A stretch of 31,633 nucleotides of DNA from a virus. Where the stretch lies: positions 1 through 31,633 of the IMG/VR virus record IMGVR_UViG_3300044998_000799. One strand, written 5' to 3'. The position numbers and the translations under genes are program-made. Positions 5,315 through 21,422 of the stretch are shown one piece after another (position 1 is the first letter of the stretch; the number at the start of each line of letters is the position of its first letter). The notes under the pieces were generated by a model. The model was not told where the DNA came from and did no database searches. It saw only the letters and a program-made list of their open reading frames with translations.

Positions 5315-6646
5315 ATGGAAAAAACGTATGTTCTTGACACGAATGTCCTGATCACCGACAGCAACGCGATTTACGCATTTGAAAACTGCGAGATCGTGAT
5401 TCCGTTGATCGTGCTCGAGGAATTGGATCGTCTCAAGAATTACCCCGATGACAGGGGACGTTCCGCCCGTCAAGTCAATCGATTGCTAGATGATCTGAGA
5501 AAGGACGGCAATCTAAGCAAGGGAGTCAAGATCGAAAGGACGAAGAGCATTCTACGTGTAGCATCCGTCGATCAGAAAGCCATCAAAAAGCTGCCTCTCG
5601 AACTGCAAGATACATCTCGTTGCGATAATGTCATTATCGCAACTGCCCTTCAAGAAGCTCAGAAAACCGTGAGGGGCAAACCCCGAGACGTTCGCATGAT
5701 TAGCAAGGACATCAATGTCCGAGTTAAGTGCGACTCTCTCGGCTTGCCTTCCGAAGATTATCTCAAGGCTCGTCCTGTTAGCGATAGCTCGGCTTTCTAC
5801 ACCGGTTACGATACTATCGATGTCGAAGATGATGTCATCGACGCGCTGTGCGAAGAAGGATGGGTTCAGTATACTCACGATTTCTTTCCTAACCACTATG
5901 TCAATCTGAGAACTCACAGCGATCCTAGCAAGTCTGTTCTGGCCCGGGCCAAAGAGCCCGGGTTTCTGGTCAAGATCAAAGATGTCGATCAAGCCTTTGG
6001 TTTGAAGCCTCGAAATATAGAGCAGCGGTTTTCTCTAGATCTGTTGTTCGACAACTCTGTCAAGCTCGTTACTTTGTGCGGTGCCGCCGGCACAGGAAAG
6101 ACCCTTTTGGCTGTCGCTGCAGGTATGCAGCACGTCCTCGAGGCGCCGGCAAAATACGATCGATTAATCATCACTCGTCCGGTGCAGCCTGTCGGCAGGG
6201 ATATCGGCTTCCTTCCCGGAACACTGCAAGAAAAGATGGATCCGTGGATTGCTCCCATCAAGGACAATCTCGATCACCTTTGTCGAGCTAAAAAGACGAG
6301 AAAGGATGAGCCTTATCTCGATCTGCTATTGAGAAATAGAAAGATCGAAATCGAAGCCATCACCTATATCCGAGGTCGATCGATTCCCAATTCGTACATC
6401 ATCATCGACGAGGCGCAGAACCTATCGATGCATGAGCTTAAGACGATCATCACGCGCGCCGGCGAAGGATCCAAAATCGTGTTGACGGGAGACATCGAGC
6501 AGATCGATAATTCTCATCTTGACATGTATAGCAACGGACTGACAAACGCAGTCGAAGCTTTCAAGGGCTACTGCATCTCTGGACACATTACATTGAACAA
6601 GGGGGAGCGCAGCCAATTGGCAACCCTTGCCAGCAAAATTCTCTGA
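5315..6646 (+). CDS. phoH: PIN domain-PhoH ATPase fusion (PhoH2/YlaK type)
   Basis: The N-terminal PIN nuclease domain spans about 1-145 of 443 residues, with acidic residues Asp8 (VLDTNVLI), Glu36, Asp104 and Asp132 (ISKDINVRVK). After a linker, the PhoH P-loop ATPase runs from about 235 to 443: Walker A GAAGTGKT (256-263), GRSIPNSYIIIDEAQN (354-369) with Walker B Asp365-Glu366, TGDIEQID (391-398), and the C-terminal KGERSQLATLA. Length and order fit the PIN-PhoH family (PhoH2/YlaK), linked to RNA unwinding and cleavage; phoH genes are frequent in marine and other large phages. All catalytic residues appear intact. In-frame ATGs also lie at 5294 and 5312; I chose 5315 because AGGA lies 5 bases upstream and the product then begins right at the PIN strand. 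It may act in phage control of RNA. Confidence 0.95.
   Translation: MEKTYVLDTNVLITDSNAIYAFENCEIVIPLIVLEELDRLKNYPDDRGRSARQVNRLLDDLRKDGNLSKGVKIERTKSILRVASVDQKAIKKLPLELQDTSRCDNVIIATALQEAQKTVRGKPRDVRMISKDINVRVKCDSLGLPSEDYLKARPVSDSSAFYTGYDTIDVEDDVIDALCEEGWVQYTHDFFPNHYVNLRTHSDPSKSVLARAKEPGFLVKIKDVDQAFGLKPRNIEQRFSLDLLFDNSVKLVTLCGAAGTGKTLLAVAAGMQHVLEAPAKYDRLIITRPVQPVGRDIGFLPGTLQEKMDPWIAPIKDNLDHLCRAKKTRKDEPYLDLLLRNRKIEIEAITYIRGRSIPNSYIIIDEAQNLSMHELKTIITRAGEGSKIVLTGDIEQIDNSHLDMYSNGLTNAVEAFKGYCISGHITLNKGERSQLATLASKIL
5943..5962 (+). other. Terminator-like hairpin inside phoH
   Basis: CCCGGGC (5943-5949) and GCCCGGG (5956-5962) form a perfect 7-bp all-GC stem with a 6-base loop, followed by TTTCT. It lies in the codons just between the PIN linker and the PhoH ATPase domain. 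It could pause RNA polymerase or ribosomes at the domain boundary, but may be coding coincidence. Confidence 0.35.
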
Positions 6647-6672
6647 CTCTTTCTGAGTTGCCTACTTTAGCG

Positions 6673-6680
6673 TATAATTG
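6673..6680 (+). promoter_or_regulatory. Candidate -10 element before the broken endonuclease gene
   Basis: TATAAT (6673-6678) is a perfect -10 hexamer and ends 6 bases before the GTG at 6685. No good -35 is seen at 16-18 bases. The gap between the PhoH stop and this GTG is only 38 bases. It is the nearest candidate promoter upstream of the long structural operon. Confidence 0.35.
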
Positions 6681-6684
6681 AACT

Positions 6685-7262
6685 GTGAAGTTCAAAGTGT
6701 ACGTCGACTATACGAAAGAACCCGATCCGAGACCCTTCTACCTAGGAAAGGGATCTGAAGGTCGGGTTCGTGATTTAAGAGGAATGATTTACACGAATCG
6801 ATAACGAAAAAGTATGGAATCAATCGTTGTGTCGAGTTTGAAACAGACAACGAACAAGAAGCCTTCGAAAAAGAACGAGAGTTGATTGCTCGATATAAGA
6901 CGTTCATGAATCATGAACCCGGACAATAGGGAGCTAACTTTACGCAAGGAGGAGACGGAACTTCTGGGTGGCAACCTTCCGAAGAAACCCGAAAAAGAAT
7001 AGGAGATAATCAACGAGGCTGGCATCACACTGACGAGACAAAAGAAAAATTAGCTAAATCTGCCGTTCTCATCCACACTGGGCGCAAACGCTCTGAAGAG
7101 ACACGTCAAAAATTAAGCGAAGCTCGTAACGGAAAGCCTCCTTGGAATAAAGGAAAGAAATTGGGAAAGCGAGAAGTTCCCAGAGTGTTCTCAGAGCAGG
7201 CAAGAAAGAATATATCAGAAAGTTGCAAAGGACGCAAGAAGCTAGTTAAAGAAAGCGTGTAA
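6685..7262 (+). pseudogene. Broken GIY-YIG/NUMOD3 homing endonuclease
   Basis: A GTG at 6685 opens FKVYVDY and RPFYLGKGSEGRVRD, a GIY-YIG variant with PFYLGKG, but this frame stops at 6802-6804. The remaining family sequence continues in the frame one base back: KRNDLHESITKKYG, FEKERELIARYKTF, then an in-frame amber TAG (6927-6929) where Trp would fit (GQ-W-GANFTQGGDG), then three or four NUMOD3 DNA-binding repeats (SEETRKRI, TDETKEKL, SEETRQKL, SEQARKNI) to a stop at 7260-7262. The lesions are therefore a one-base insertion (or two-base deletion) near 6771-6785 and a probable TGG-to-TAG change. GIY-YIG endonucleases with NUMOD3 are mobile phage genes. The remnant occupies the whole 615-base gap between phoH and the structural operon and ends in the TAATG that starts the first array gene. 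Confidence 0.88.
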
Positions 7263-8560
7263 TGGCTACTCTGATACAGTCCATCAATCACTTCATGACC
7301 GGGTCCATCAAGGCCTCGGCCGAAGTGTTTGCTTCTATCTTTTTTCTGCTTGACGAGTACGGACCTAAGGTCGGCATTCGAAGAGTAGCCTACAACACCG
7401 GAAGCTATCCTTTCGGCGCGGGTATGTATTATGGAAATACGGAAGCATCTTCAAGCAACAACGCTTGGGCCTGCTTTTATTGGTCGAATGCCGAAAATCC
7501 GTTTTTCATGTTGCTACAGTATGCAACGGCATCCGTCGATTCGTTTCCGTTCGGAAATCTTGAAGATGGAGCCCAAGGTACGTTGATGGGAAACGCTCCG
7601 TCCGTCAGTCGAGGCGGCGTCGGAATTCAATTTGCGGCCCTTCCGTACAGCTTGGCGCGCCTCGGAGAAATTGATATCTGGAACGGAAGCAGATTCTCCA
7701 ACGGAAAAGACAGAAAAAATGCTCCGTGTCCCTGGAACACGGCATCCAATGACGTCGTTATCTTTCCTCGTTCGAACAACGATGTTCCGGGTCGCGATCG
7801 AAATGGTTTGGTTTATAGCGCTCCCGGGTTTAATCAGAGGTGGGCCGCGGGCGCCGCCGAGCATGCCGTTGCTCGATCCCAGTATTCCTGCATCGTAGCT
7901 CAAAAAGATATTCAGAGTTCGAGCCAGCAGCTGCTGTGGCACATAATGGCCGACGGCGATGCCTTCATGTTCATCAAGAACTTCGGCACTGCCAGCAATT
8001 CATTCAATTATTCCGGAATGTATTTCGGGCCGTATGAAGAAGCTGTCGGCTTCAATTCGAAGATGAGATATGTGATGATCAATCACCTATCGGGTCCCGT
8101 CGGAGATCCTCCTTTCTCCCCCTTGTCTTCGGGTTCGTATTACGGCGATAGGATGGGAACATCGTCTTTTGACGGTGGCGTCGCTTTTCCGACATGCATC
8201 AGCGGTTGCTTCGCTGCCGCTCTCGAGATCCCGACATTCATCAGCGATTCCAAATTCACACCCGCTCGTTTGTTTCAATCGGCGGCCAATTATCCTATCT
8301 ACGATGAATTTCCTTGGGGCTTGGCCGCGTACGATCCCGAAGGCCAGACCTTTGGATTCTGCGGCAGCATTCGATTCATGCGAGCTCTTTGGGGAGTCAG
8401 CACCCACACCGTATTTTCCGAAAGCCTTCGATGTGCCTTCGGAAATTCAGCTACTGGAAGCGTCAAATTCACCGTGCCGTGGCTTACAGGATCTCTTTTC
8501 ACTCCAGGAACTCGGTTGAATGTGACGGGCACGCAGCTAACGTTTACGACTACTTATTGA
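7262..8560 (+). CDS. Array paralog 1, putative virion surface protein
   Basis: The 432-residue product has GIRRVAYNTGS (38-48), NNAWACFYW (66-74), PFFMLLQY (80-87), a modified NGKDRKNAPCPW (147-158), VIFPRSNN (166-173), a YFGPY near 255 and a C-terminal TVPWLTG. It shows the array motif order, but the Asp-Thr-Lys core is altered and a region with DIWNG replaces PW-GT. The ATG overlaps the stop of the broken endonuclease (TAATG) and lacks a clear Shine-Dalgarno, so its expression may once have been coupled to another upstream gene. No signal peptide or membrane segment is seen. A tail-fibre or surface role is inferred from the operon context only. Confidence 0.72.
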   Translation: MATLIQSINHFMTGSIKASAEVFASIFFLLDEYGPKVGIRRVAYNTGSYPFGAGMYYGNTEASSSNNAWACFYWSNAENPFFMLLQYATASVDSFPFGNLEDGAQGTLMGNAPSVSRGGVGIQFAALPYSLARLGEIDIWNGSRFSNGKDRKNAPCPWNTASNDVVIFPRSNNDVPGRDRNGLVYSAPGFNQRWAAGAAEHAVARSQYSCIVAQKDIQSSSQQLLWHIMADGDAFMFIKNFGTASNSFNYSGMYFGPYEEAVGFNSKMRYVMINHLSGPVGDPPFSPLSSGSYYGDRMGTSSFDGGVAFPTCISGCFAAALEIPTFISDSKFTPARLFQSAANYPIYDEFPWGLAAYDPEGQTFGFCGSIRFMRALWGVSTHTVFSESLRCAFGNSATGSVKFTVPWLTGSLFTPGTRLNVTGTQLTFTTTY

Positions 8561-8566
8561 GTACTC

Positions 8567-9811
8567 ATGGCAACCATTGGATTCATCGAAAATAGGATCA
8601 GACCGACTCCGAGTCCGGGCACTGATTATTACATGACGATATTCCAATTCCTGTCTAGCAGCTATGCTGTCGGAGAAGGAATTGAACTTCTTGCCTACAA
8701 TACGGGTACTCTTTCGTCTCCGGGTATCGGAGGCATGAATTATTCTGATGAACCGAACAGAGTGGGAAACAATTCCATTGCTCTTTTTCGGTTCAACATG
8801 GCGAATCCGCCCTTCTATGTTTTGCTGCAGTTTTCGTCAGGATCTGTCTTTGGTTCAAATGAGCAGGCTTTTGCTCCGGCCACCTCGACGACGCTAACAG
8901 CATCTCTCTACGGTAACTCTATCGGTCCGACGGGAAACGAAAGAATTCTTACTCCGGGATTTCAACACATACATGGAGCCACGGCTATAGCCGTGGCTTG
9001 CAGAGCCGATGGTGGTAATCCGTGGAACGGGACCATGACCATCGGCGGAGCCGTTAAGGGAAATCCTGTTTGGATATCCGGATCATCACAGCTTTGCGTC
9101 TGGCCTCGCTCAAATGGTCAATCGGGAAGCTTCGATGTGACAAGTTCGGCATTCAATCCATCTGTCAATTATAGACGTCACAATATGTTTCCTCTCGTGT
9201 CGAATAACTCGATGGCAGGCAGGCACTCTACAGTTTCCGTTGTTGCCAATCGAGAAAATCTCCTGATCGTCACCGACGTCGGCAATTCAGGTAGCTCAAC
9301 ATTTTGGTATTTCGGTAAATACAATGCTCGCCCCGGGCTGGTTCCTGAAGTTCCGTATGTCTGCTTGTGTACAACAGGCAGTAATAACGATCCGCCCTTT
9401 AAGATCAGACCACACAAATTTGGTACGTTAGACGGAACTCCAGAAGAAGGAGGCGTAGCCCACCCAGTTGCTGCCTTTGGAGTAAGGCAATGTTCTCTTG
9501 AATTGATGAGAACGTTTGTCAACACTGTCAATTTGCATCCCAATACGATGTTTGGATTTCCGCACAAGTTTGATCAATTTGTCTACTTCTTGCTTTTGGA
9601 TGAGGATCCCAACCAATACGGTTACCTCGGTACGATCGACTTCTTCAGAATAGTCTATGGAACAGTGCCTCGAGGCGTCTCAAGAACGAGACAGTGGGCT
9701 ATTTTTGGTAGCACGACGCCGTATACGGCCAAGCTTTTGATTCCCTGGGATAATTTGTCTCCCGCCGGTTCGGGAGGAAACAGAAGAGGAAGGATATTTT
9801 CACGTGACTGA
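8567..9811 (+). CDS. Array paralog 2, putative virion surface protein
   Basis: The 414-residue product carries GIELLAYNTGT (38-48), GNNSIALFRF (67-76) in place of NNAWA-F-F, PPFYVLLQF (81-89), ATAIAVACRADGGNPWNGT (138-156), NPVW (166-169), VWPRSNG (178-184), YFGKY, a late GGVAHP, YGYLGTIDFF and a final IPWDN. The IAVA strand codons contain a perfect 22-base DNA palindrome. The start is 6 bases after the previous stop. The 3' end overlaps the next GTG start by 8 bases. Confidence 0.72.
   Translation: MATIGFIENRIRPTPSPGTDYYMTIFQFLSSSYAVGEGIELLAYNTGTLSSPGIGGMNYSDEPNRVGNNSIALFRFNMANPPFYVLLQFSSGSVFGSNEQAFAPATSTTLTASLYGNSIGPTGNERILTPGFQHIHGATAIAVACRADGGNPWNGTMTIGGAVKGNPVWISGSSQLCVWPRSNGQSGSFDVTSSAFNPSVNYRRHNMFPLVSNNSMAGRHSTVSVVANRENLLIVTDVGNSGSSTFWYFGKYNARPGLVPEVPYVCLCTTGSNNDPPFKIRPHKFGTLDGTPEEGGVAHPVAAFGVRQCSLELMRTFVNTVNLHPNTMFGFPHKFDQFVYFLLLDEDPNQYGYLGTIDFFRIVYGTVPRGVSRTRQWAIFGSTTPYTAKLLIPWDNLSPAGSGGNRRGRIFSRD
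8977..8998. repeat. Perfect 22-bp palindrome within array paralog 2
   Basis: The half-site AGCCACGGCTA is followed immediately by its exact reverse complement, so the 22 bases are fully self-complementary with no loop. It lies in frame over codons for Ala-Thr-Ala-Ile-Ala-Val-Ala, the conserved IAVA strand of the array family. It could be a protein binding site or a recombination feature, or chance in an Ala-rich strand. Confidence 0.6.
9785..9794 (+). promoter_or_regulatory. Ribosome binding site supporting a GTG start
   Basis: AGAGGAAGGA ends 9 bases before the GTG at 9804. It lies inside the previous gene and supports a GTG start for the 69-residue protein, which has no suitable ATG nearby. 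Confidence 0.6.
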
Positions 9812-10013
9812 ACCGCTTTATGCAGGCGATTACTTTACGACTCTTTTGCCGGCGTTTCCTCCTGTCGTCTTTGGGGTCAAAGATTATAATCTAGATAGGG
9901 AACGCTTCCAGAAGGTATATTCGTACATTCGAGCCAAGCAGATTTGGGTCTTTAGAGTGTCAGATGATCCGCCCATTCCGGACGCGTACCAGGGTCGATT
10001 GAGTCCATACTAA
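9804..10013 (+). CDS. Small protein inserted in the paralog array
   Basis: The 69-residue product starts at GTG and is not a member of the nine-copy family. Its middle, PPVVFGVKDYNLDRERFQKVYSYIR (21-45), resembles the tail of the 184-residue protein that closes the array (PPPVGPYDMNRFRKTYTHVR), with shared PP-V, Y, RF-K-Y and R positions. It may be a chaperone, linker or short adaptor for the neighbouring array proteins. It overlaps paralog 2 by 8 bases and shares its last base with the ATG of paralog 3 (TAATG). Confidence 0.65.
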   Translation: MTEPLYAGDYFTTLLPAFPPVVFGVKDYNLDRERFQKVYSYIRAKQIWVFRVSDDPPIPDAYQGRLSPY

Positions 10014-11725
10014 TGCCGACGTATACCGTTCAACTAGACGGTCTGTTGACGACCACGAATTCGACTGAAGGACCGCTAAATGAAGCGTTGTTCTCTCAGA
10101 TAAAGAATTTTCTGCTTAATAACTCGTCTTCTTTGGGTACGCAATTGGTTGCGCAAGGAGACGGATTTACGTATTCCAATCAAAGGCTGCAAAACGCTAC
10201 TGGACCCGCCGCTGCAAACACAATCCAGGATAATTTTAATCCTGCTGACCCGGGCTGCGCCGGCGCCAACTCTTCTCGAAAAGGGTATGCCTTTTATGTC
10301 TGGGATATCGTCCACGGAGGAACTTCTGGACAATGGTGCTGCATTCGTTTTGCTTCTGCCTCGATTCCTTTTGATGTTTTTCTTCATTATTTTAGCGGTT
10401 CTAGAACGCGTGAAGGTCGTCCACAAGCGACGTGGACAGGTGATACGACAGACTCTATCTCTAGTCAAGCCGGCTACAGAACGAACACGCAGCAGGTCGC
10501 GATCGGCGCACCGACCAATATCGACTGTCCGCCTTCAGGAGCAGGGGGAAATGATTACGCATTGCGAACCCGAACAGAAGAAGGAATTCCCTCTTCTTTT
10601 ACAGAAGGGGATTACACAATCTTTGCCCGAACAGGTTTTTACTATCTTGGTTCGAGTAGAACAACGGGCGGTGACCAGCGTATGCGCGGCGGCGGATTAG
10701 GCATCCAGATCGCGCAAAGAGCCGATGGCGGTCCGGCATGGAATTTGGCAACGGGTAGTCAGACTGGCCTGTTTATTCCCGCCGCGCAACAAGGAATTGC
10801 GAGCGCGAGCCAGGCAATTCCTAACTTTTCCTATCCGTGGACAGCGGGTTCGAGTACTTTGGGAGTTTTTCCTATTTCGAACGCCGCTTTGTCTTCTTAC
10901 CCAACGACAGCCTCGCTTGGAGGACATCACGCTACTTCTTCTAACAATCTGTTTCCTGTGTCTTTTGACAGAGGAACGGCACAGTCGACTTGGCATATGC
11001 GCTATCATTTGTTGGCCGATCCGGATAATCTTCTGATTGTGTCCAGCGACCCGCAGGCCGCAGGATTTACGTCGCAATACAGGTTTTGTTACTTCGGTAA
11101 GTACATTCCGCTAAAGGAAGTTCGTCCCGATTACCCGTGGACGATGCAAGTCCCCTACGTGTTTTTGGCAACCATGGAAGGGGCTCGTAATGAACCCACG
11201 ATTCCTGTCGGTAGATCCATTATCGACTCAGTCTTCGTCGAACCGGTTGTATGGGGTAGTTGGCAAGGATTCAACGCTTGGGAAGGCGGATCTTGGTATC
11301 CGACCGCGTCTCAAGGCGTATCGTCTGTCATGCTCGATCTTCCCAATAGATCTCGAGATCCGGATTTGAACCCAAATCGCTTGATCGGCAATGGGACTCC
11401 GCAATATGATCGATATCCGATCGGCGTGTGGTTGACAGGATCAGCCGGTCGGTCGCATCCCGGCATCTCCTATTTAGGAAGGTTGAACGATCTGATAAGA
11501 GCTGTCTCGGGTCTAGCATCTCACGATCAGACATCTGATCTGAAGTATGCTGTGGTCGGTAACGCCGGCACGACCGGATTGGGATCGAATCTTTCGGTCG
11601 ATCTTTCGGATCCGTTCTCATTTTTGAGACAAAAGATGGTCATCCCTTGGAACGGCACCACTCTAATTGGAACTAATTCGTCCTCCTCTGGGTTGACAGG
11701 AAGCATTACGACGGTCGCGACATGA
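10013..11725 (+). CDS. Array paralog 3 (longest), putative virion surface protein
   Basis: At 570 residues it is the longest and most divergent member. It keeps WCCIRFASASIPFDVFLHYF (about 108-127, matching AWACF-F--A--PF--L-Q), GIQIAQRADGGPAW (about 230-243), LGVFPISN (about 283-290), YFGKYIPL near 361, PYVFL, a GGSWYP in place of GGV-HP, and MVIPWNGT near the end. It lacks the G-DTK--PVW element. Extra sequence of about 100 residues (around 128-228, Ser/Thr/Gly/Arg-rich) lies between the first and second motif blocks. The final 20 residues are Ser/Gly/Thr-rich. It overlaps the next gene by 4 bases (ATGA). Confidence 0.7.
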   Translation: MPTYTVQLDGLLTTTNSTEGPLNEALFSQIKNFLLNNSSSLGTQLVAQGDGFTYSNQRLQNATGPAAANTIQDNFNPADPGCAGANSSRKGYAFYVWDIVHGGTSGQWCCIRFASASIPFDVFLHYFSGSRTREGRPQATWTGDTTDSISSQAGYRTNTQQVAIGAPTNIDCPPSGAGGNDYALRTRTEEGIPSSFTEGDYTIFARTGFYYLGSSRTTGGDQRMRGGGLGIQIAQRADGGPAWNLATGSQTGLFIPAAQQGIASASQAIPNFSYPWTAGSSTLGVFPISNAALSSYPTTASLGGHHATSSNNLFPVSFDRGTAQSTWHMRYHLLADPDNLLIVSSDPQAAGFTSQYRFCYFGKYIPLKEVRPDYPWTMQVPYVFLATMEGARNEPTIPVGRSIIDSVFVEPVVWGSWQGFNAWEGGSWYPTASQGVSSVMLDLPNRSRDPDLNPNRLIGNGTPQYDRYPIGVWLTGSAGRSHPGISYLGRLNDLIRAVSGLASHDQTSDLKYAVVGNAGTTGLGSNLSVDLSDPFSFLRQKMVIPWNGTTLIGTNSSSSGLTGSITTVAT

Positions 11726-12918
11726 CGCTAGTAGCCTCTATTGAACACAGATATACTTCTCGTCGAGTCTATCAAGAAGCTTTTGTCAATCTTTATAACT
11801 TCTTGAGTAGTACTTGCGCCCCGATCGGAGTTCAACTAATCGCTAATAATAGCGGATCTAACGGCACAGGATTTGGATTTTGGGACAGTCCGTTGTCTGC
11901 TAGTCATAACGCATGGGCTTGTTTCAAATTTGCTTCAGCCACTGTGCCCTTTTACACTCTGATTCAATATACAGAGAACGTTAACTTTGGTACGTCTCCG
12001 GGTAACCCTGGCCTGGCTGATGGTGCCGCCGGGCAGTATCGTATAGCTGTGGCCGTCGCATTTTGTTCGGGCGGTGCCAACGCGTGGGGCGGTACGACAG
12101 CTAGTAATGGAGCTGACACTAAAAGCACGCCCGTGTGGACATCCGCGTCAGCTCCGCTTTTTGTTTTTCCTCGTTCGAACAATCCGACAGGAAGTCATCT
12201 AACTAACAAAGAAAATATGATGACATTCTTCAGATCGACTAACTACTCACAGGCCGATCTATTCAATATGACGACTGAGGGCGGTACGGGAGCCGTTACT
12301 CATTTCTTTGCTGATGAGAACAATTTCCTTTTCATGGCTGATCCCGGGGCACTGGGCAATTATAGCGTCATCTATTTTGGGAAATATACGTCTCGTTCCG
12401 ATATCACTCCGGATTTTCCGTATGTCAGCATGGGTCTGTATACAGATTCAACCGATAGAGCTCCCATGACATATACTGCCGATTATGGATCCACGGCCGG
12501 TACTTTGACGAATACGACGTTTCCGGGAGGAATTGTGCACCCATCGTCATCTTTTGGAGTTCGAACCTGCAAAGTGTTGTTGAACGCACTTTTCATGCAG
12601 TCTCGATATCATCCTAACAAATCGATGACGACGGCATCCAATCGTTATGATCTGCACCGTCCCCAGTTGGCGATTTTCGAAGATCCCAACCACTATGGCT
12701 ATTTGGGAATGATCAACTTCTTCAGGATGGGATGGGGAATTCCAACTGCCGCCGTCTCATCTTCTGGAGATTATGCAGCTTTCAATGTGCATCTTGCGTT
12801 TACAATGAATCGACCTTGGAACACGTACCTCAAGATGATCGTTCCGTGGACGGGATCGGTGCAACCTTATTCATTGACTAGTCGACTTGGCGTCCAGTTC
12901 ACGAGGTCTTTTGTCTGA
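11722..12918 (+). CDS. Array paralog 4 (shortest), putative virion surface protein
   Basis: This 398-residue member shows the family pattern most compactly: FVNLYNFLSS (21-30), HNAWACFKF (62-70), TVPFYTLIQY (74-83), IAVAVAF (108-114), AWGGT (121-125), NGADTKSTPVW (129-139), FVFPRSNN (147-154), YFGKY (218-222), PYVSM (233-237), GGIVHP, YGYLGMINFF and MIVPWTGS. It makes a good reference for building a profile of the family. It starts in ATGA overlap and ends in TGATG overlap with its neighbours. Confidence 0.72.
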   Translation: MTLVASIEHRYTSRRVYQEAFVNLYNFLSSTCAPIGVQLIANNSGSNGTGFGFWDSPLSASHNAWACFKFASATVPFYTLIQYTENVNFGTSPGNPGLADGAAGQYRIAVAVAFCSGGANAWGGTTASNGADTKSTPVWTSASAPLFVFPRSNNPTGSHLTNKENMMTFFRSTNYSQADLFNMTTEGGTGAVTHFFADENNFLFMADPGALGNYSVIYFGKYTSRSDITPDFPYVSMGLYTDSTDRAPMTYTADYGSTAGTLTNTTFPGGIVHPSSSFGVRTCKVLLNALFMQSRYHPNKSMTTASNRYDLHRPQLAIFEDPNHYGYLGMINFFRMGWGIPTAAVSSSGDYAAFNVHLAFTMNRPWNTYLKMIVPWTGSVQPYSLTSRLGVQFTRSFV

Positions 12919-14399
12919 TGGCCCGAAAAGGTCTTCTCAACTGTTATATCGATGGGCATGGTCAACATCATCCCTATCAGACAGATATTTCTCCCATTCT
13001 CAATGAGTTGAGAGGTTATGGTAACGCGTACATCTCACAAGAGATGTTTGTCACTCTGTTCAACTATTTTAGTAGCGCAGATGCTCAGAGCTTAGGAATT
13101 CAAAGAAGGGCTTATTTTCGCGGAGGTCAGACTCCAAATCTATGCTTTCCGATGCCTGAGGAGACGACCGGCTCGGCCGCCGGCACGGGCACAGCGTATT
13201 GGGATCAACCCAATCCCATGGGAAATCACGCTTGGGCGGCCTTCGAGTTTACGCAAGGATCTCCTTCTTTCTGGATTTGTATGCAATGGGGAGCGGCTTC
13301 GACGAGTGCTGCATTCAACACTGAATATGGGTACACTCTCGCAGCTCCAGGTTTTGGTCTCAGCGGCTCGGGCGGGCAAGCTAGCGGGTCGATCGGAAGC
13401 CCCTATACTAACGCGTCGGTCAATGCCGCCAATATTTCAATGCTTCAAGCGTCGAATCATAGTCGTCTCGCCGGTGTGGGTATCTCTGTAGCATTCATGA
13501 ACGATGGTTCGTCTCCTTGGAATGGAACGACGAATAACGATGGAGCCGACACGAAAGGGGCTCCGCTGTGGAAAAACAATGCGATGGTTTTTCCTCGAGC
13601 AAACAACGATCGAGGAGTTTTTGCCTCAAACAAAGATCTAATGTTTGGTTTGCTCTATGAGCAGAATTGCGTGTTTCGAGCAGGTATTGGCGACGGCCTC
13701 GCCGGAGCCCCTCAACGAAGCTTTGCTAGCATTGGGATTGATGCGGGATACGCGAAATACAACGACGATGCCGCCGTACTGTATCATACGATTCTCGAAG
13801 AAGACAAATTTTGTATTCTAATCGATCATTCGGGCGTCGGTCTCTATTCAATGCTTTATTACGGACCATATGTTCCGTACGTATCCAGTTCGATCGCACC
13901 GCGGATCGCTCTACACAAATATTGCAATAACAACGATGATGCCGGCATCTTGTCTATCGGCAACAATCAAGTGTACGGCGGATTTGACATGGGACAGATG
14001 ATCTCATCAAATCAGTATGCAGATCAGACTATGGGAGATACGTGTTATCATCAAGGAGGAGTGACTCATCCGACATCTGCTTCTGTAGTAGGTTGCAGCC
14101 TCGATGCATTTCCTTATTCGAATTTTGACAGTCCTAGAAGGTTTCAAACCGACATTAGGGGACCGTGGTTGACTAGCTATCCGCTAGTGTATATGAATGA
14201 ATTCCCAGAGCGTCGATCTCTTCTCGGAGAAATTCGTTGGTTTTCCATCATCTCTAATTTGCCGAGCAATGCATTGCTCAATACGGGGTCGCTGGCGGCG
14301 TTCGGTAATCCCAAGATGGGAACTTTCAAAGCGGTCGTTCCGTGGTTCACAGGAACGCAACCAGGTATTTATGGGTCGAGGCTGGGACAGGCCCGTTGA
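12918..14399 (+). CDS. Array paralog 5, putative virion surface protein
   Basis: The 493-residue product starts with KGLLNC (4-9), an N-terminal motif shared with the next two members. It has NHAWAAFEF near 102-110, SPWNGTTNNDGADTKGAPLW near 199-218, FPRANND near 224, YYGPY near 314 in place of YFGKY, GGVTHP near 380 and AVVPWFTG near the end. Extra Gly/Ser-rich sequence (roughly 130-180) separates the first two blocks. It shares one base with the previous gene and ends 6 bases before the next. Confidence 0.72.
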   Translation: MARKGLLNCYIDGHGQHHPYQTDISPILNELRGYGNAYISQEMFVTLFNYFSSADAQSLGIQRRAYFRGGQTPNLCFPMPEETTGSAAGTGTAYWDQPNPMGNHAWAAFEFTQGSPSFWICMQWGAASTSAAFNTEYGYTLAAPGFGLSGSGGQASGSIGSPYTNASVNAANISMLQASNHSRLAGVGISVAFMNDGSSPWNGTTNNDGADTKGAPLWKNNAMVFPRANNDRGVFASNKDLMFGLLYEQNCVFRAGIGDGLAGAPQRSFASIGIDAGYAKYNDDAAVLYHTILEEDKFCILIDHSGVGLYSMLYYGPYVPYVSSSIAPRIALHKYCNNNDDAGILSIGNNQVYGGFDMGQMISSNQYADQTMGDTCYHQGGVTHPTSASVVGCSLDAFPYSNFDSPRRFQTDIRGPWLTSYPLVYMNEFPERRSLLGEIRWFSIISNLPSNALLNTGSLAAFGNPKMGTFKAVVPWFTGTQPGIYGSRLGQAR

Positions 14400-14405
14400 C
14401 TCATC

Positions 14406-15824
14406 ATGCCCAAAGGTATTCTCAATTGCTCAGCTGAAGGTCGGATGTTTCGTCGATATGTTTCGGGCTATACCGGCGAACATACGTTTAACATCAGCAT
14501 CATCGACATTTTTACGAACCTAGTCACTGCCTTCGATTCTTCGATGGCCTCGAGTTATGGTATTGTTCGTCGGGCCAGCAATTTTGGTCTGACAGGAAAC
14601 GCTTCGAATAACATCTCTAGATTTTCTGAAGCGAATATCATGACTAATCCAGGAAATGGTCTGACGAGGTGGGATGCGGGATCTCCTCCTGGAAACAACG
14701 CGTGGGTACTGTACGAATTCACTCAAGCTACCGTACCGTTCTGGGTATTGATTCAATTCGCTAAGGAATCTATAGATTTCAACTATCAGAGGTTTGGAGA
14801 GCCTCCCGGTAACCCTGCCTCGACTCAAAGCATTATGACGAATGCTGTTCCGACTAGTCAAAATAGGAATAACGGAGTCAATATTGCTATAGCATATATG
14901 CTCGATGGAAGTTCTCCCTGGACGGGAACCACGAATAACAATGGAGCTGATACAAAAGCACAGCCCGTTTGGTTAGCTGATGCTGTTAAGTTTCCTCGGA
15001 CAAATGATCCGGGTGGCTGGGAATTTTTGACCGCCAATCGAATGATTCCTATCATTCATGAAACGTCGATAGTATACAACCCAGGATATAATACGACGCA
15101 GCACAATCCTAATCCGTCCGCTTTGCCTTTTGACGCTTTCAACATGCTGTATCACGTCATGTTCGATCAAGACAACATATTGATTTTTTTTGATGTTAAC
15201 GGCCAGGGCAATACGGGTAGTCTTTTCTATTACGGAAAGTTTAAGCCATATCACGCTGACAATCCGGCTCCTTATGTTTGTCTTTATCGAAACAACTGCT
15301 ATGATGACACTAGCAAATCGCTGATTCTAGCAGAGAATTTGCAAGAGCAGTACACACCATACGGTTGTGTGCAAGCAAATTCGACATCGACAGTTACTAG
15401 CAATACGACTAACAACTTCATGCAACCGTATCTGAATACGGGCCCGCGCCAGGCGATCAACGGAGGCGTCTATCATCATGCTCGTCGTCACAGTGTTGGA
15501 TGTCTGCTTGGGATTCCGCCTCACATGAATGATGATCTTAAGCAGATTCCCAACATGCTAATGATCCACGATAATTCGGGAAATTTCAAACACCTGACTG
15601 TCTATCCGGATGTTCTAGGTTTCGAGTATCCGAGTCGCTATGGCTACATGGGACGTCTGACATTCTTCAAAATCGCTAAAAATGTCAGACACGGTCATTT
15701 CTTTTCGGATTCTGAACTTATCATCGGTAATCCCGCTACCGGCACAAATAAAATGATCATCCCGTGGGACCCCAACACCGAATATGGGTTGTTTGGGAAT
15801 CGATATGGAACGGTGTGGGTATGA
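14406..15824 (+). CDS. Array paralog 6, putative virion surface protein
   Basis: The 472-residue product begins with KGILNC (3-8) and carries NNAWVLYEF (about 97-105), TVPFWVLIQF, SSPWTGTTNNNGADTKAQPVW (about 169-189), FPRTND (about 195-200), an F-D-Q-D-N-I-L-I block, YYGKF (about 275-279), GGVYHH (about 353), YGYMGRLTFF and MIIPWDPN. A Thr/Asn-rich insertion lies before GGVYHH. Its SSPW-GTTNN-GADTK block is nearly the same as that of paralog 5, suggesting that the two are recent duplicates or exchanged sequence. The stop overlaps the next ATG. Confidence 0.72.
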   Translation: MPKGILNCSAEGRMFRRYVSGYTGEHTFNISIIDIFTNLVTAFDSSMASSYGIVRRASNFGLTGNASNNISRFSEANIMTNPGNGLTRWDAGSPPGNNAWVLYEFTQATVPFWVLIQFAKESIDFNYQRFGEPPGNPASTQSIMTNAVPTSQNRNNGVNIAIAYMLDGSSPWTGTTNNNGADTKAQPVWLADAVKFPRTNDPGGWEFLTANRMIPIIHETSIVYNPGYNTTQHNPNPSALPFDAFNMLYHVMFDQDNILIFFDVNGQGNTGSLFYYGKFKPYHADNPAPYVCLYRNNCYDDTSKSLILAENLQEQYTPYGCVQANSTSTVTSNTTNNFMQPYLNTGPRQAINGGVYHHARRHSVGCLLGIPPHMNDDLKQIPNMLMIHDNSGNFKHLTVYPDVLGFEYPSRYGYMGRLTFFKIAKNVRHGHFFSDSELIIGNPATGTNKMIIPWDPNTEYGLFGNRYGTVWV

Positions 15825-17233
15825 CGTTCCGAGGATTACTCAATTGCGAGGCCGATTATCGATCCCCGTGGTTCGATAACGCACTGTCGCTCGGAGCGAT
15901 GGGCACCATCGACCAGCAAATCTTTGTGACGCTCTTCAAATTTCTGTCAGGTAGCGCAGGTCAGAGTCTAGGAATCAGACTTAGGGCTCACAATTACGGC
16001 AGAAATAATGATCTTCTATACAACTACGGGTGGAGATCAGGAGGTAGTTCTTCTATGGGCTATTGGGACGAGGCTGCCCCTGCAGGCAATAATGCTTTTG
16101 GAGTCTTTGAGTTTACGAATTCGACTCCGCCCCTGTGGATTTGCTTACAGTTTCACGGCTACAGTTATAATGCTGGATTGAATCCAAGCAGTTTTCCAAC
16201 TAACCCGACATATCCGCAGTCTGTTGGAGGCCCAAACGTAAACGAATCAGGTGTCTTCATCTCATGCGCTTTTCGACAAGACGGAGGAAATCCGTTTGGT
16301 AGCGCTTCGATGCCAAACAATGGTACCGACATCAAGCCTACTCCTGTTTGGAATAGCGGATCTGTTATATTTCCTAGAGCCTCGGGAGATGGAGGAGACA
16401 GAAAAGCAGCCGCAGATGGTGTCATGAGATTGACTCCTCGTGCCGGTAGGGTTAGAGGTCAGACGGGAGGCGAAGATTCGACGTTTGCCCCAAACCCATC
16501 GGCTTCTTATGACAAAAATTCCGGAATTTATCATGTCATTGCTTCTGAAGATTCATTGCTTTTTGTCATGGATCCGAAAGGCATCGGAAATTATAGCTGC
16601 TTCTTTTATGTCGGCAAATATGATCAGATTCGAACGGCCTTGTCCGAGAGTTTAAATTGGTGCAACTACGTGTGTCTTCAACTGATGAACACGGATAGTT
16701 CTCCCAATCGACCTATCCTTCCCCGTTATGGAGAATCCATTGTTGGATCGATTAGAGCCTTTGGAGAAAGGTCGATCCAGACGACAGCTTTTGCATCGTC
16801 TGGATCATCCGCCAATCCGGATCACGGTCTCAATGAAACATGGATCGGAGGAGGTGCCAACAACGTTTACACGAATCGGGTCGAGGCTGTCATCATCGAC
16901 AGAAATCAACTGATGGAGGACACGAATCTTTTGACGCCCGTCTATCTCAGACATCCTAATCGAGCTGTTTCCGAACCAACAGGTCGAACTCCCGGAAAAT
17001 TCGATATGTTTACTGTGCCTATCGCATGTTTTGGAGATCATTTTGGTTACGGCAAACTCGGAGAAATCAGTACTTTCTACATGGTCTTCGGTTTACCATC
17101 TAACACGACCATCAACAATAAGCAGTGGGCCGTCGTCGGAGATGCGCAAGTGAATTCTATCAAACTTGCCATTCCTTGGGACGGCGTATCTGATCCCGGC
17201 ACAGCTGGTGGTCGGGGAGGAATTTCTTTCTAA
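15821..17233 (+). CDS. Array paralog 7, putative virion surface protein
   Basis: I place the start at the ATG at 15821, which overlaps the previous stop (ATGA) and gives RGLLNC at residues 4-9 as in paralogs 5 and 6; the in-frame ATG at 15764 would add 19 residues encoded inside the previous gene. The 470 residues show NNAFGVFEF (about 90-98), PPLWICLQF, NNGTDIKPTPVW (about 166-177, Asp-Ile-Lys instead of Asp-Thr-Lys), FPRASG (about 184-189), YVGKY (about 262-266), YGKLGEISTF (about 409) and LAIPWDG (about 448). The GGV-HP block is replaced by a longer loop with GGGANNVYTN. Confidence 0.72.
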   Translation: MTFRGLLNCEADYRSPWFDNALSLGAMGTIDQQIFVTLFKFLSGSAGQSLGIRLRAHNYGRNNDLLYNYGWRSGGSSSMGYWDEAAPAGNNAFGVFEFTNSTPPLWICLQFHGYSYNAGLNPSSFPTNPTYPQSVGGPNVNESGVFISCAFRQDGGNPFGSASMPNNGTDIKPTPVWNSGSVIFPRASGDGGDRKAAADGVMRLTPRAGRVRGQTGGEDSTFAPNPSASYDKNSGIYHVIASEDSLLFVMDPKGIGNYSCFFYVGKYDQIRTALSESLNWCNYVCLQLMNTDSSPNRPILPRYGESIVGSIRAFGERSIQTTAFASSGSSANPDHGLNETWIGGGANNVYTNRVEAVIIDRNQLMEDTNLLTPVYLRHPNRAVSEPTGRTPGKFDMFTVPIACFGDHFGYGKLGEISTFYMVFGLPSNTTINNKQWAVVGDAQVNSIKLAIPWDGVSDPGTAGGRGGISF

Positions 17234-18612
17234 TGCCAATGGCAGGACTAGTCAACCAAGGGTGGAGATACGCGTCGTCTCCTGACCCATACTATCCGTC
17301 CCCCGCAGCTCGTTTGATCGTATACGATCACACGTTCATCAATTTCTTTAGATTTTTGTCGGGCACATGCGCCCCGATGGGTGTGCGTTTACGAGCTTAT
17401 CATACAGGTTCTGGATCTCCAAATGGAGGTATGAACACAATTGATTCGGGATACAAACCCCACGGCGAGCGTGCGTGGTATACTTTTGAATTTACGCAGG
17501 CCGATCCTCCTTTTTGGTTGCACGCGTGGTGCGGATTTGATGGAGGGTCTGACACCGGTGGCGTTGCTGCCCCCGCCCTATCAGACGGAGGAACTAGCGT
17601 AAATAATCGTCACTGGTCGATCGCTATCGCTTGTCGTTCTGACGGAGGTTGTCCATGGAATGGATCGACATCTAGCAGTGGTATCGACACTAAAGGCACG
17701 CCTGTTTGGTCAGCTACTGCCGGCGGAGGATCAGGTACGCTCTACGTTTGGCCTCGTTCTAACAATCCCGGCGGCGCCCATAATACAACCAAACAAAACT
17801 GTGCCGGCGCATTTTCTGATAACGTAGAAGATTTGACTGTATATGATAGCACGTTCGAACCCACATCGTTTGCTCATTTTTTTGCCGGACCCGACTGGTA
17901 TATACTTCTCAATGACGCGGGCGGCAACGGCATATGCTATTGGGATCACTTCGGAAAGTACGTACCGATTCCGCAGTTGAGCGGTACGTGTCCACACTAT
18001 TTCATGGCCAACTTCAAAGGACGAATGTCCAATGGCCACGGCACGTACGATTCATTTATGCATGAAGTTGCCGGGTTTCAAGGCTTTGGGTCTCTTAATG
18101 GCGGCCAAGTCGATGCATCGACTTTTGGTGGCTTAGCCGGTTCTGATTTTGCAGTTAATGGAGTCAGCCAAGGAGGAATCGCCGTCAATCCATCAGCTTC
18201 AAGCAGCCCAGTACGTTGTATGCATTGGTCCATGCCTTCTATCTTCCCGTATACGATCCATGGCATGTCAGCTGGAAATGTTGCTCAACCTTCGGGATCG
18301 GCCTGGATTGATGAATGGACCCCTTATCTTTATGTAGGAGAAAATTCGTACGGCACCGGCGCTGCAGGATATATCGGAGTCGCCCGAGATCTTAAGATCG
18401 TCGGCGGCGGGATTCAGCATTATTCTCTTAATGCTCAGAAAACCAAGGCAGCGTTTCATTGTTATCCGTATCTGTTTGGAAACGTGTTAGACGGTACTAC
18501 AAGTTACAATGCTTTCAACCCGGTTCATATTTCGATCGTGACTCCGTGGACGTCTTCTATCTATCCCTATCACGATGTGACATATGACGGCACGCCATTC
18601 TACATTCCCTGA
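17233..18612 (+). CDS. Array paralog 8, putative virion surface protein
   Basis: The 459-residue product starts with MAGLVNQG (3-10), a variant of the G-L-L-N motif. It has GVRLRAYHTGS, ERAWYTFEF (about 79-87), PPFWLHAW, SIAIACRSDGGCPWNGS, GIDTKGTPVW (about 152-161), VWPRSNN (about 172-178), HFGKYVPI (about 239), a GGI block and a C-terminal VTPWTSS. It is richest in Gly/Ser among the members. TAATG joins it to paralog 7, and a second ATG (17239) is another possible start. It ends 6 bases before the last member. Confidence 0.72.
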   Translation: MPMAGLVNQGWRYASSPDPYYPSPAARLIVYDHTFINFFRFLSGTCAPMGVRLRAYHTGSGSPNGGMNTIDSGYKPHGERAWYTFEFTQADPPFWLHAWCGFDGGSDTGGVAAPALSDGGTSVNNRHWSIAIACRSDGGCPWNGSTSSSGIDTKGTPVWSATAGGGSGTLYVWPRSNNPGGAHNTTKQNCAGAFSDNVEDLTVYDSTFEPTSFAHFFAGPDWYILLNDAGGNGICYWDHFGKYVPIPQLSGTCPHYFMANFKGRMSNGHGTYDSFMHEVAGFQGFGSLNGGQVDASTFGGLAGSDFAVNGVSQGGIAVNPSASSSPVRCMHWSMPSIFPYTIHGMSAGNVAQPSGSAWIDEWTPYLYVGENSYGTGAAGYIGVARDLKIVGGGIQHYSLNAQKTKAAFHCYPYLFGNVLDGTTSYNAFNPVHISIVTPWTSSIYPYHDVTYDGTPFYIP

Positions 18613-18618
18613 GGAATC

Positions 18619-19863
18619 ATGTCTTTACACGGAACAGTAAATCACACGATCTGGCGACCTGTTACTAATCAAGAGGTTGAAGTCAGACATGCATTCAACG
18701 ACATGTTCGTCGCGACCTATCGCTTTTTGAATTCTCCCACGGCGGCAGCCATGGGCATTGTGCGTCGGGCATGCAATTTTAACAATCAGGCGTCCGATTG
18801 CGATTACAAATACAGAAAGTCGTCTCCGCCTCCTGGTAATAATGCTTGGGCTCTTTTCGAGTTCACTAGCGCCAATCTTCCGTTTTGGTTATTGATCCAG
18901 CAAAGCGATTCTTCCAACAACGCATCATTTGGTATCGGCGCCGGAGAACCCGCTGATAACGATTGGTCTCGCAAAATCAGCGGATTTTGTTTTTCAATCG
19001 CCGTGAGAGAAGACGGAGGTAATCCCTGGGGAGGAACGACTCTCAATAACGGATTTGATTCTAAGTCTAGACCCGTTTGGACTCCGGGCCCGTCGCGCTT
19101 AGCCATGTTCCCTATCAGCAATCAGCCACGAGGTGTTTGGAGAGTCGATCGTTCTGGTATGCATCCTGTTTCTTTGTGGATCGATTGGAACAATACAAGA
19201 ACTAGATGCACGCTGTTTCACTTTATTGCCACAGAAGATAGCGTCACCTTTTTGATGGGTCATGATGGCGGAACGAATTACGATGTCTCGTACTTTGGAA
19301 AATACAATCCAATCGATCAGTCAACATCCTCGACTGCCTACTGTTTTTTTGGAGCATTGACGAATAATCTAGGATTTAACAATACAGACTATTCTGACCT
19401 GATATGGCCATGGCACGGCGGAGGCGGTGTATATGGTCTACGTCACTTCGGAAACAACACTGAACGTATGACGTATGCTGGGGTCAACTCGGCTACCGGG
19501 CAAGATTACTACTGGACAGGAGGAATCTTAGACAGATCAGCATTTCAGGCCGTGCCCTTAGCTTTGGGGCTGCCTCTGCAAATTCATTATTATCGGTATT
19601 ATGCGAGAAGAATAGTTTTGAATCCCGCATTGAAAAAGATAGACGTCTTCAATTTTCCAGTCTATATCGATGGGTTGGGCCGCGGAGTCGCTGGAGAAAT
19701 CAGTAATTTGAAGTATGTTCACACTCTTCCTAATCACGCTACGATTCATGGTAGGAAGTTTGCTGTGTTCGGTCGGACCCATTCCCAAGGCAAGATCATG
19801 ACGCAGTGGGCTCCGAATATTCCACCTGGCAGATATACTAACGTCTTCGGAGAGCAATTTTAA
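18619..19863 (+). CDS. Array paralog 9, putative virion surface protein
   Basis: The 414-residue product begins MSLHGTVNH, a variant of the G-(L/I)-(L/V)-N motif. It has GIVRRACNF, NNAWALFEF (about 73-81), LPFWLLIQ, IAVREDGGNPWGGT (about 127-140), NNGFDSKSRPVW (about 143-154), FPISNQ (about 164-169), a D-S-V-T-F-L block, YFGKYNPI (about 225) and a degenerate end (MTQWAPN instead of IPW-G). GAGGAAT before the ATG is one of the better ribosome binding sites in the array. Its stop overlaps the ATG of the 184-residue gene. Confidence 0.72.
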   Translation: MSLHGTVNHTIWRPVTNQEVEVRHAFNDMFVATYRFLNSPTAAAMGIVRRACNFNNQASDCDYKYRKSSPPPGNNAWALFEFTSANLPFWLLIQQSDSSNNASFGIGAGEPADNDWSRKISGFCFSIAVREDGGNPWGGTTLNNGFDSKSRPVWTPGPSRLAMFPISNQPRGVWRVDRSGMHPVSLWIDWNNTRTRCTLFHFIATEDSVTFLMGHDGGTNYDVSYFGKYNPIDQSTSSTAYCFFGALTNNLGFNNTDYSDLIWPWHGGGGVYGLRHFGNNTERMTYAGVNSATGQDYYWTGGILDRSAFQAVPLALGLPLQIHYYRYYARRIVLNPALKKIDVFNFPVYIDGLGRGVAGEISNLKYVHTLPNHATIHGRKFAVFGRTHSQGKIMTQWAPNIPPGRYTNVFGEQF

Positions 19864-20417
19864 TGGCTCTCGTTCTGATGGTGACTCAGTCTCTTAACGA
19901 CGGGTACAGGATATCTCCTGAGACCCTGTCGGCTCATGTGAGTTCGTCTGATTACGTGTCATCATCAGTGGGTTACATCTTTTCGACGACAGATTATCCC
20001 GAGTCGATTTGTACTATCATTTCTTCGTCTTTTTCCACAGAGATTTATGGAGAGATATTCGAAGCTCATTCACCCGTATACAACGCCACTACTCCGCTTA
20101 TTCCGTTTGAGATGCTGATTGCTGACGCCGGCGCCTTCGTACCTCGTCGAAACTATTACGTCTCTAGTTCATTCGCTGATGATTCTACGCAAGATGTTTC
20201 GACCTTCATCGCTCGATCTTCTGACTATACGGGCCTGACAGCTAGTATTTCTACGTTGGACACCATCGAATTGGGCACGACATCCAACGTCGAACCCGAT
20301 GAACCTCCTTTCCCGGATCCGCCCCCGGTCGGACCCTACGATATGAATCGATTCAGGAAGACGTATACCCACGTCCGCGTGCGACCTAGAATCAGGAAAT
20401 ACAGTTCGTCTCCGTGA
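19863..20417 (+). CDS. Ser-rich protein closing the paralog array
   Basis: The 184-residue protein is Ser/Thr-rich (runs such as SSSDYVSSSV) and appears mainly beta-structured to about 140. A Pro-rich linker (EPPFPDPPPVGP, 146-157) follows, then a basic tail with RFRKTYTHVRVRPRIRK. It is not a member of the nine-copy family. The tail resembles part of the 69-residue array protein. It probably belongs to the virion with its neighbours; no specific role can be given. A TAATG overlap joins it to paralog 9, and a 24-base gap, the longest in the operon, follows. Confidence 0.68.
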   Translation: MALVLMVTQSLNDGYRISPETLSAHVSSSDYVSSSVGYIFSTTDYPESICTIISSSFSTEIYGEIFEAHSPVYNATTPLIPFEMLIADAGAFVPRRNYYVSSSFADDSTQDVSTFIARSSDYTGLTASISTLDTIELGTTSNVEPDEPPFPDPPPVGPYDMNRFRKTYTHVRVRPRIRKYSSSP

Positions 20418-20441
20418 CCAACTTCTTACTTATGGACAACG

Positions 20442-21422
20442 ATGGGGCTGCTTGATTCCAAGACTAGAATTCTAGACACGCAAGTGACACTTGAGGGTCG
20501 CAGGCAGATCTCTACCGGTAGATTCAAGATCGAATGGATATCTTTGACCGACGGAGCCACATTTTACGAGGCCGATGCAGTCTCGGGATCCTCTGACGCG
20601 ACCAAACGAATCTATCTAGAAACTTGTCACTTGCCGCAAGATCAGATCACGTTTGAGGCTGATGATTCTGGCAAGCTAATGCCCTTCCGAAACGACAAGA
20701 ACATTCTTGTCAAAAGCGGCAAGCTTTTCTCAGGCAGCATCAACATCACCGGATCTTTTGCCAACGATTACGAGCTCATCGAAAATGAGCAATTTGCCAG
20801 TCTGGCATCCTCCCTGCTTTCTTCTTCCTTGGAAAATTTCAAGAAATGTCGAATGATCGGCACGATAGATCCGATCTTCGAGAACGATCTTTTCCTCGCC
20901 GGTCCATCAGATATCGAGTTTGTAATCACGGATGAAAATCCTATCGACGATGTTCGAGCTCAATCGGCCAATATCAATCACCTGGAATCGTTTTTCCAGG
21001 ATCGTAGGATGATGCATCTAGATAACTTCATGTATCTTCCACCCGTCATGAAGACGGAGGATCCGGTGGATCTGACCAATCCAGACCAGGCCAGAATATT
21101 CCGAATCGGAGAGTATGCAGCACTTGGCCCGACAGATAGATCTGATTATTCTGAGTTCGAAGAGGAACTATTGACGGCCGAACGAACTGGGTTTTGTAAG
21201 ACAGTTCGTTTCGATCCGACTAGCCGCAATAATAGGATCGGAGCCCAATTTTTTGAAATCAGAAAGAACGACATTCTGAAGCTTGAAGCCATCGACTTTG
21301 GCACTCACAGGACTGATGATCCCGATCACCCGATCAAAAAAGTATACTTTCTGGGCAAAGTCATGGTCGATGACAACGGAAATTACACTTTCATCCATCT
21401 TTTTACGTTGGTGTTTGACTGA
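20442..21422 (+). CDS. Putative structural protein, MGxLD-type N-terminus
   Basis: The 326-residue product begins MGLLDSKTRILDTQVTLEGR, then G-R-F-K-I-E-W-I-S-L-T-D-G. The gene at 31374 begins with the same pattern (MGFLD, T-x-x-I-L, L-T-x-x-G-R, F-x-I), so the two share an N-terminal domain. The remainder is mixed alpha/beta with an acidic middle and no membrane segment. The position at the head of four large structural-type genes suggests a virion or tail/baseplate component. Its TGA overlaps the ATG of the next gene (TGATG). Confidence 0.72.
   Translation: MGLLDSKTRILDTQVTLEGRRQISTGRFKIEWISLTDGATFYEADAVSGSSDATKRIYLETCHLPQDQITFEADDSGKLMPFRNDKNILVKSGKLFSGSINITGSFANDYELIENEQFASLASSLLSSSLENFKKCRMIGTIDPIFENDLFLAGPSDIEFVITDENPIDDVRAQSANINHLESFFQDRRMMHLDNFMYLPPVMKTEDPVDLTNPDQARIFRIGEYAALGPTDRSDYSEFEEELLTAERTGFCKTVRFDPTSRNNRIGAQFFEIRKNDILKLEAIDFGTHRTDDPDHPIKKVYFLGKVMVDDNGNYTFIHLFTLVFD

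Follow-up and report, generated by a model that had tools for sequence, protein, structure and literature searches.

Why does this viral sequence carry nine consecutive genes for versions of one protein, and what might their products build together? The window (the whole stretch analysed, which is an entire IMG/VR record) is a linear fragment of 31,633 bases, and its + strand holds, from 7262 to 19863, nine full-length paralogous ORFs of 398–570 aa, arranged head to tail. Our preferred reading, to which we give a probability of roughly two in three, is that the nine genes encode baseplate-attached fibre-arm subunits that are co-expressed, probably co-assembled and bind a structure on the host surface. 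This reading builds on what could be computed: paralogy, a fold match, the baseplate context in relatives, operon coupling and old duplications. The features discussed below are as follows, G005 and G006 being related viral contigs.

7262–8560, +: p1, 432 aa, family member by BLASTP/HMM
8567–9811, +: p2, 414 aa, family member by BLASTP/HMM; groups with G006 copy 2 (tree support 96/83)
9804–10013, +: 69-aa ORF that begins at GTG and overlaps both p2 and p3; contains the motif YNLDRERFQKVYS, common to other small array-associated proteins
10013–11725, +: p3, 570 aa, enlarged by long loop insertions; its core takes a JBD30 gp47-type fold in the model (8rk3_K, Z 17.3)
11722–12918, +: p4, 398 aa, the most central member; modelled with a JBD30 gp47-type fold (8rk3_K, Z 17.4)
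12918–14399, +: p5, 493 aa, family member by BLASTP/HMM
14406–15824, +: p6, 472 aa, family member by BLASTP/HMM
15821–17233, +: p7, 470 aa, family member by BLASTP/HMM; start set at ATG 15821
17233–18612, +: p8, 459 aa, family member by BLASTP/HMM
18619–19863, +: p9, 414 aa, family member by BLASTP/HMM
19863–20417, +: 184-aa small protein at the array end; C-terminal motif MNRFRKTYTH, common to small proteins of the G005 array
20442–29861, +: four large conserved proteins (326, 828, 1330 and 654 aa), syntenic with G005 (29–47% identity)

The nine paralogs and their operon

BLASTP joins every pair of the nine proteins, either directly or via other copies, with the best pairs (p5–p6 and p2–p4) reaching E 1e-48 to 1e-51 and the weakest direct pair (p3–p5) E 0.3. 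Identity among the paralogs is 21–31%. They align in a single motif order (NAW..F.F, DGGNPW.GT, NG.D.K..PVW, FPRSN, H..AD.DN, YFGKY, PYV, GGI..P, G.LG.I, PW) with 14 invariant columns, and length variation is limited to defined loops (p4 positions ~45–48, 82–113, 157–194 and 234–269). An HMM made from the nine sequences matches exactly these nine proteins in the record. The earlier note's description of nine divergent paralogs with one motif order was thus borne out by BLASTP, alignment and HMM.

The longest exact DNA word common to any two copies is 17 nt. This rules out a collapsed or duplicated assembly, an artefact that the earlier note had raised, as the source of the copies, which are therefore real and old. 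In a tree of 25 family members, the nine window copies are intermixed with those of G005 and G006 and do not form one clade; the window label changes five times, with at least three of these changes forced by well-supported branches. Most of the duplications are therefore older than the split of these phages, and the array did not arise in a recent burst. Because branches are long, one-to-one partners can seldom be assigned clearly; the closest pair is p4 and G005 copy 4 (38%).

We set the start of p7 at ATG 15821, which forms an ATGA overlap with p6, instead of at the first-listed GTG 15764. Stop/start overlaps then occur at p3 (with the preceding 69-aa ORF), p4, p5, p7 and p8, whereas p2, p6 and p9 follow the previous stop after a 6-nt gap, so the overlapping starts that had been claimed for the array hold for only some of its genes. 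Between p2 and p3, what looks like a 201-nt gap is occupied by the 69-aa ORF (9804–10013), which overlaps both. Stop/start coupling in one operon and one orientation implies that all nine proteins are produced together in the cell.

Many tandem variants of one protein could also constitute a switchable or diversity-generating cassette array, with one variant in use at a time, but here the copies are all complete, identically oriented and coupled, and with a longest identity of 17 nt homologous recombination between them is unlikely. We found no inverted repeats of at least 20 nt in window 6600–20500 and no reverse transcriptase (RVT_1) in the window or in the records of six relatives, which, together with the coupled operon, makes it unlikely that the variants are used singly. 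We therefore consider such a cassette array very improbable.

Directly 5′ of the array (window 6650–7261) lies an apparently broken homing endonuclease of GIY-YIG/NUMOD type, spread over two frames with stops, and an intact GIY-YIG endonuclease is found at 30668–31360.

Predicted fold and its relation to JBD30 gp47 and gp48

Sequence searches gave the family no match: none for the nine paralogs in Pfam and PHROGs (the best was EB_dh, E 0.098, for one copy), none for three members against GenBank phages by tblastn, none for the family profile among PDB sequences, and none for the family-profile HMM in Atu_ph07, phage G and ACP17. Structure prediction was more informative. AlphaFold models were made for two of the nine copies, p4 and p3, both from one set of 23 sequences. 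The p4 model (pLDDT 82.5, pTM 0.87) matched JBD30 baseplate chains in Foldseek (8rk3_G, E 2.8e-5; 8rk3_K, E 1.2e-4), and its VIA-align comparison with 8rk3_K gave Z 17.4 over 264 residues at rmsd 4.2, with the next best entry at Z 3.8. For p3, the most length-variable copy, the model is weak (pLDDT 60, loops unresolved), and its single match was again 8rk3_K (Z 17.3, next best 3.5). The models of p4 and p3 thus agree on a common fold, and on their evidence the family is predicted to carry the gp47/gp48 fold. The earlier note had called the family unrecognised and proposed structure prediction as a check; the description holds at the level of sequence, where neither Pfam nor PHROGs gives a match, but fails at the level of fold.

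The 8rk3 chain lengths of 317 and 305 fit gp47 (318 aa) and gp48 (307 aa), and we assign chain 8rk3_K to gp47, the assignment of K and G being made from chain lengths. In JBD5, a relative of JBD30, the two genes directly after the tape measure (318 and 307 aa) match the 8rk3 entities of the same lengths. The gp47 and gp48 proteins have similar folds and form three lateral arms, each of three gp47–gp48 heterodimers (PMC11445458). The arms embrace the type IV pilus, although the pilus complex was obtained at 26 Å only and the residue contacts come from AlphaFold-Multimer (PMC11445458). That paper also labels gp47 a nitrilase; we have not adopted this label, and the nine paralogs have no Pfam enzyme match above threshold.

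The window family resembles gp47/gp48 (PDB 8rk3; phrog_687 "structural protein", from Casadabanvirus and related siphophages) in its predicted fold over 264 residues, in encoding proteins of like fold from neighbouring genes of one operon, and in a core motif of the type (H/Y)..AD.DN....YFGKY. A tail/baseplate position is a further likeness, drawn for the window family from the context of its relatives. The differences are also considerable. JBD30 has a non-contractile tail and two copies, whereas the window family belongs to contractile-tailed phages and reaches nine; identity is ~12%, there is no phrog_687 HMM match, and the proteins are longer, with large loop insertions. The JBD30 genes lie between the tape-measure and distal-tail genes, a position in which the window array is not placed. 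Side-by-side pairs of phrog_687 genes of such size occur in annotated siphophage records (JBD5 and eight others, a count that leaves out Vibrio phage GH32, a phrog_687 record without annotation).

By sequence, gp47 and gp48 both match phrog_687 and each matches the other's profile (97.4%), whereas a phrog_687 search of the window and its relatives was empty, placing the nine paralogs outside that family. Separate comparisons of the family profile with gp47, gp48 and phage G gave low probabilities (18.5%, 1.5% and 1.2%), and all converge on one region, that of the core motif. When the family profile (A2) was compared with a merged gp47, gp48 and phage G profile, the score was 38.2 (hhalign probability 43.5%), while the maximum among 60 block shuffles was 18.9. 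We take the relationship, as it appears in these profiles, as distant homology and not as phrog_687 membership.

Tandem paralogs with related predicted folds also occur elsewhere. Bacillus phage G has three (gp371, gp372 and gp373, 29–36% identity), and gp371 is both a Foldseek match of the p4 model (E 5e-4) and a phrog_687 match (E 2e-7). These genes (phrog_9130 "virion structural protein") resemble the window array in being tandem paralogs of a jumbo myophage, but they number only three, encode compact proteins of ~285 aa and do not match the window family significantly by sequence. Another tandem duplication lies upstream in the same tail region of phage G (L074 2051–8183), where gp363, gp364 and gp366 all match phrog_10667 and phrog_17517, and gp364 and gp366 both match phrog_10080. 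The p4 model is also matched by three consecutive UniProt accessions, A7KUT2–A7KUT4 (E 3e-4 to 1e-3), which we take to be proteins of Bacillus phage 0305phi8-36, their tandem order being read from the accession numbers alone. Phage 0305phi8-36 is a myovirus with curly baseplate fibres (PMC2147016). A limited literature search found no paper on jumbo-phage tail fibres assembled as heteromers of several paralogs.

Relatives, copy number and baseplate neighbours

A related-locus search with p4 returned nothing, and one with the neighbouring 326-aa protein returned no confirmed relative. Searching with degenerate DNA patterns built on the conserved motifs did locate relatives, which lie in IMG/VR and on a single MAG contig binned as Myxococcales and were confirmed by HMM. 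This profile and metagenome search, which the earlier note had suggested, found the family on 16 further contigs, 15 viral and one from a MAG, each carrying 1–7 copies. The window has nine copies and G005 seven; G006, G001, G019 and G020 have three each; G022, G028, G026, G024 (which also has a third short piece) and G027 have two; and G003, G014, the MAG contig, G021, G023 and G025 have one (at the contig end in G021 and G025), these counts including likely near duplicates (G022/G028 and G024/G027) and several relatives that are fragments. The MAG member (CANJCO010000109.1, L048 3017–4210) is alone on a 9.2-kb contig that could be a prophage or else phage sequence placed in the wrong bin. Nine copies are the extreme of a family mostly arranged in tandem and, since relatives carry 1–7, the top of a range. 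The earlier note had called nine tandem paralogs unusual; the count is the highest seen, but tandem arrangement is normal for this family.

Copy number turns over among relatives while flanking gene order stays constant, which, alongside the strong divergence of the copies (21–31% identity) and the restriction of length variation to defined loops, would suit a receptor-binding repertoire. In such a repertoire, each paralog would assemble into a separate homo-oligomeric fibre of distinct specificity, and the virion would display these fibres side by side for a wider host or receptor range. We find this doubtful, since gp47 and gp48, the fold relatives that have been characterised, form heterodimers rather than homomeric fibres, and since the duplications predate the phage split, with no recent burst. 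Co-production through stop/start coupling is compatible with both readings.

The window array sits between PhoH and the 326-aa protein, and a PHROG search around it recognised no baseplate gene. In three lineages of relatives, however, family genes lie beside baseplate-wedge genes. They are near wedge genes (phrog_6/43/219) in G014 and in G028/G026: the latter have a phrog_6 wedge gene, one or two small genes and then the family copies, downstream of hub-like genes (and, in G028, sheath genes), while in G014 one small gene separates the family copy from gp25-like and gp6-like wedge genes. In G001/G006, the array closes a module opened by wedge genes. The copies of G020 and G024 are surrounded by genes without recognised tail function.

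The closest syntenic relative, G005 (IMGVR_UViG_3300005683_000047), has the genes that flank the window array in unchanged order on either side (27–66% identity) and likewise has two small RFRKxYT-motif proteins; it differs in having seven copies rather than nine, with few clear one-to-one partners. It also encodes a T4-type major capsid protein, portal, TerL and two sheath genes, and these, together with the sheath in G028, indicate contractile-tailed phages. The two G005 sheath genes are large adjacent paralogs (1006 and 997 aa; L031 807–6874). The G005 PhoH (L033 59143–60936) has ~140 extra residues near the Walker A position of the window PhoH, possibly an intein, and the window encodes a 374-aa protein (584–1708) with a GroEL-like match (phrog_5725, E 4e-14) that is conserved in G005 and G006.

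Downstream of the window array, the 326-, 828- and 654-aa proteins had no informative PHROG match, the 1330-aa protein matched nothing in GenBank phages, and hhalign matched none of the four to baseplate proteins of G001, G006 or G028. Large conserved partners of this kind, and the lack in Pfam of a catalytic signature or known carbohydrate-binding domain, would be in keeping with a non-adhesive decoration, in which the paralogs would sit on the baseplate or tail as a passive collar or spacer and make no receptor contact. We think this unlikely: the only solved relatives touch the host pilus, and hypervariable loops and copy-number turnover are probably marks of host-facing proteins.

Proposed role of the nine subunits

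A structural, baseplate-level role, as the earlier note had guessed, is supported by the JBD30 tail-fibre/baseplate fold and by the relatives' wedge neighbours. Of its two more specific ideas, a hetero-oligomer is better supported than a library of receptor-binding variants, because gp47 and gp48 are adjacent, similar in fold and heterodimeric and because the nine genes form one coupled operon. The lattice that it had envisaged found no support, and neither switching nor diversifying machinery was found for the library.

We therefore favour fibre arms built from subunits of one operon. The nine subunits would be translated together and would attach to the baseplate of a large contractile-tailed phage. 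By analogy with the gp47–gp48 heterodimers, the paralogs most likely pair with one another through their conserved core to form lateral arms, leaving the length-variable loops to face the host and contact a structure on its surface, for example a pilus or other filament or a polymer. No family member matched a protein proven in a virion and a fold by itself is no proof of function; virion presence, hetero-assembly, adhesion and the receptor are parts of this reading that we infer. More tentatively still, and with odds we would call low, each subunit might occupy a fixed place in one arm, making it an addressable heteropolymer with a specialised paralog per position and with copy number setting length or valency.

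This gives a function hypothesis for a protein family without a Pfam or PHROG match, brings large contractile-tailed phages into the range of the JBD30 pilus-arm fold, and finds the gp47/gp48 fold repeatedly in tandem (2, 3, 7 and 9 copies). It also raises the questions of whether phages assemble adhesive arms out of numerous distinct paralogs and whether host range or arm size is set by the number of copies.

Two other groups of array-associated proteins are worth recording. Directly upstream of three-copy arrays are giant proteins of 1744–2216 aa (G001 6213–11447, G006 71889–77513 and G019 9915–16565), which align with one another in shuffled segments, a pattern that suggests internally repeated, fast-evolving fibre proteins. 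At the other extreme of size, proteins of 69, 184, 95 and 116 aa share the motif Y-x-[LM]-[DE]-x-x-R-[FY]-[RQ]-K-x-Y-[TS] near the C terminus (window 9804–10013 and 19863–20417; G005, L033 49514–49801 and 53517–53867). A regular expression for this motif had no other match in the stretches of the window and of six relatives that were examined, and the motif could be a docking tail for fibre proteins.
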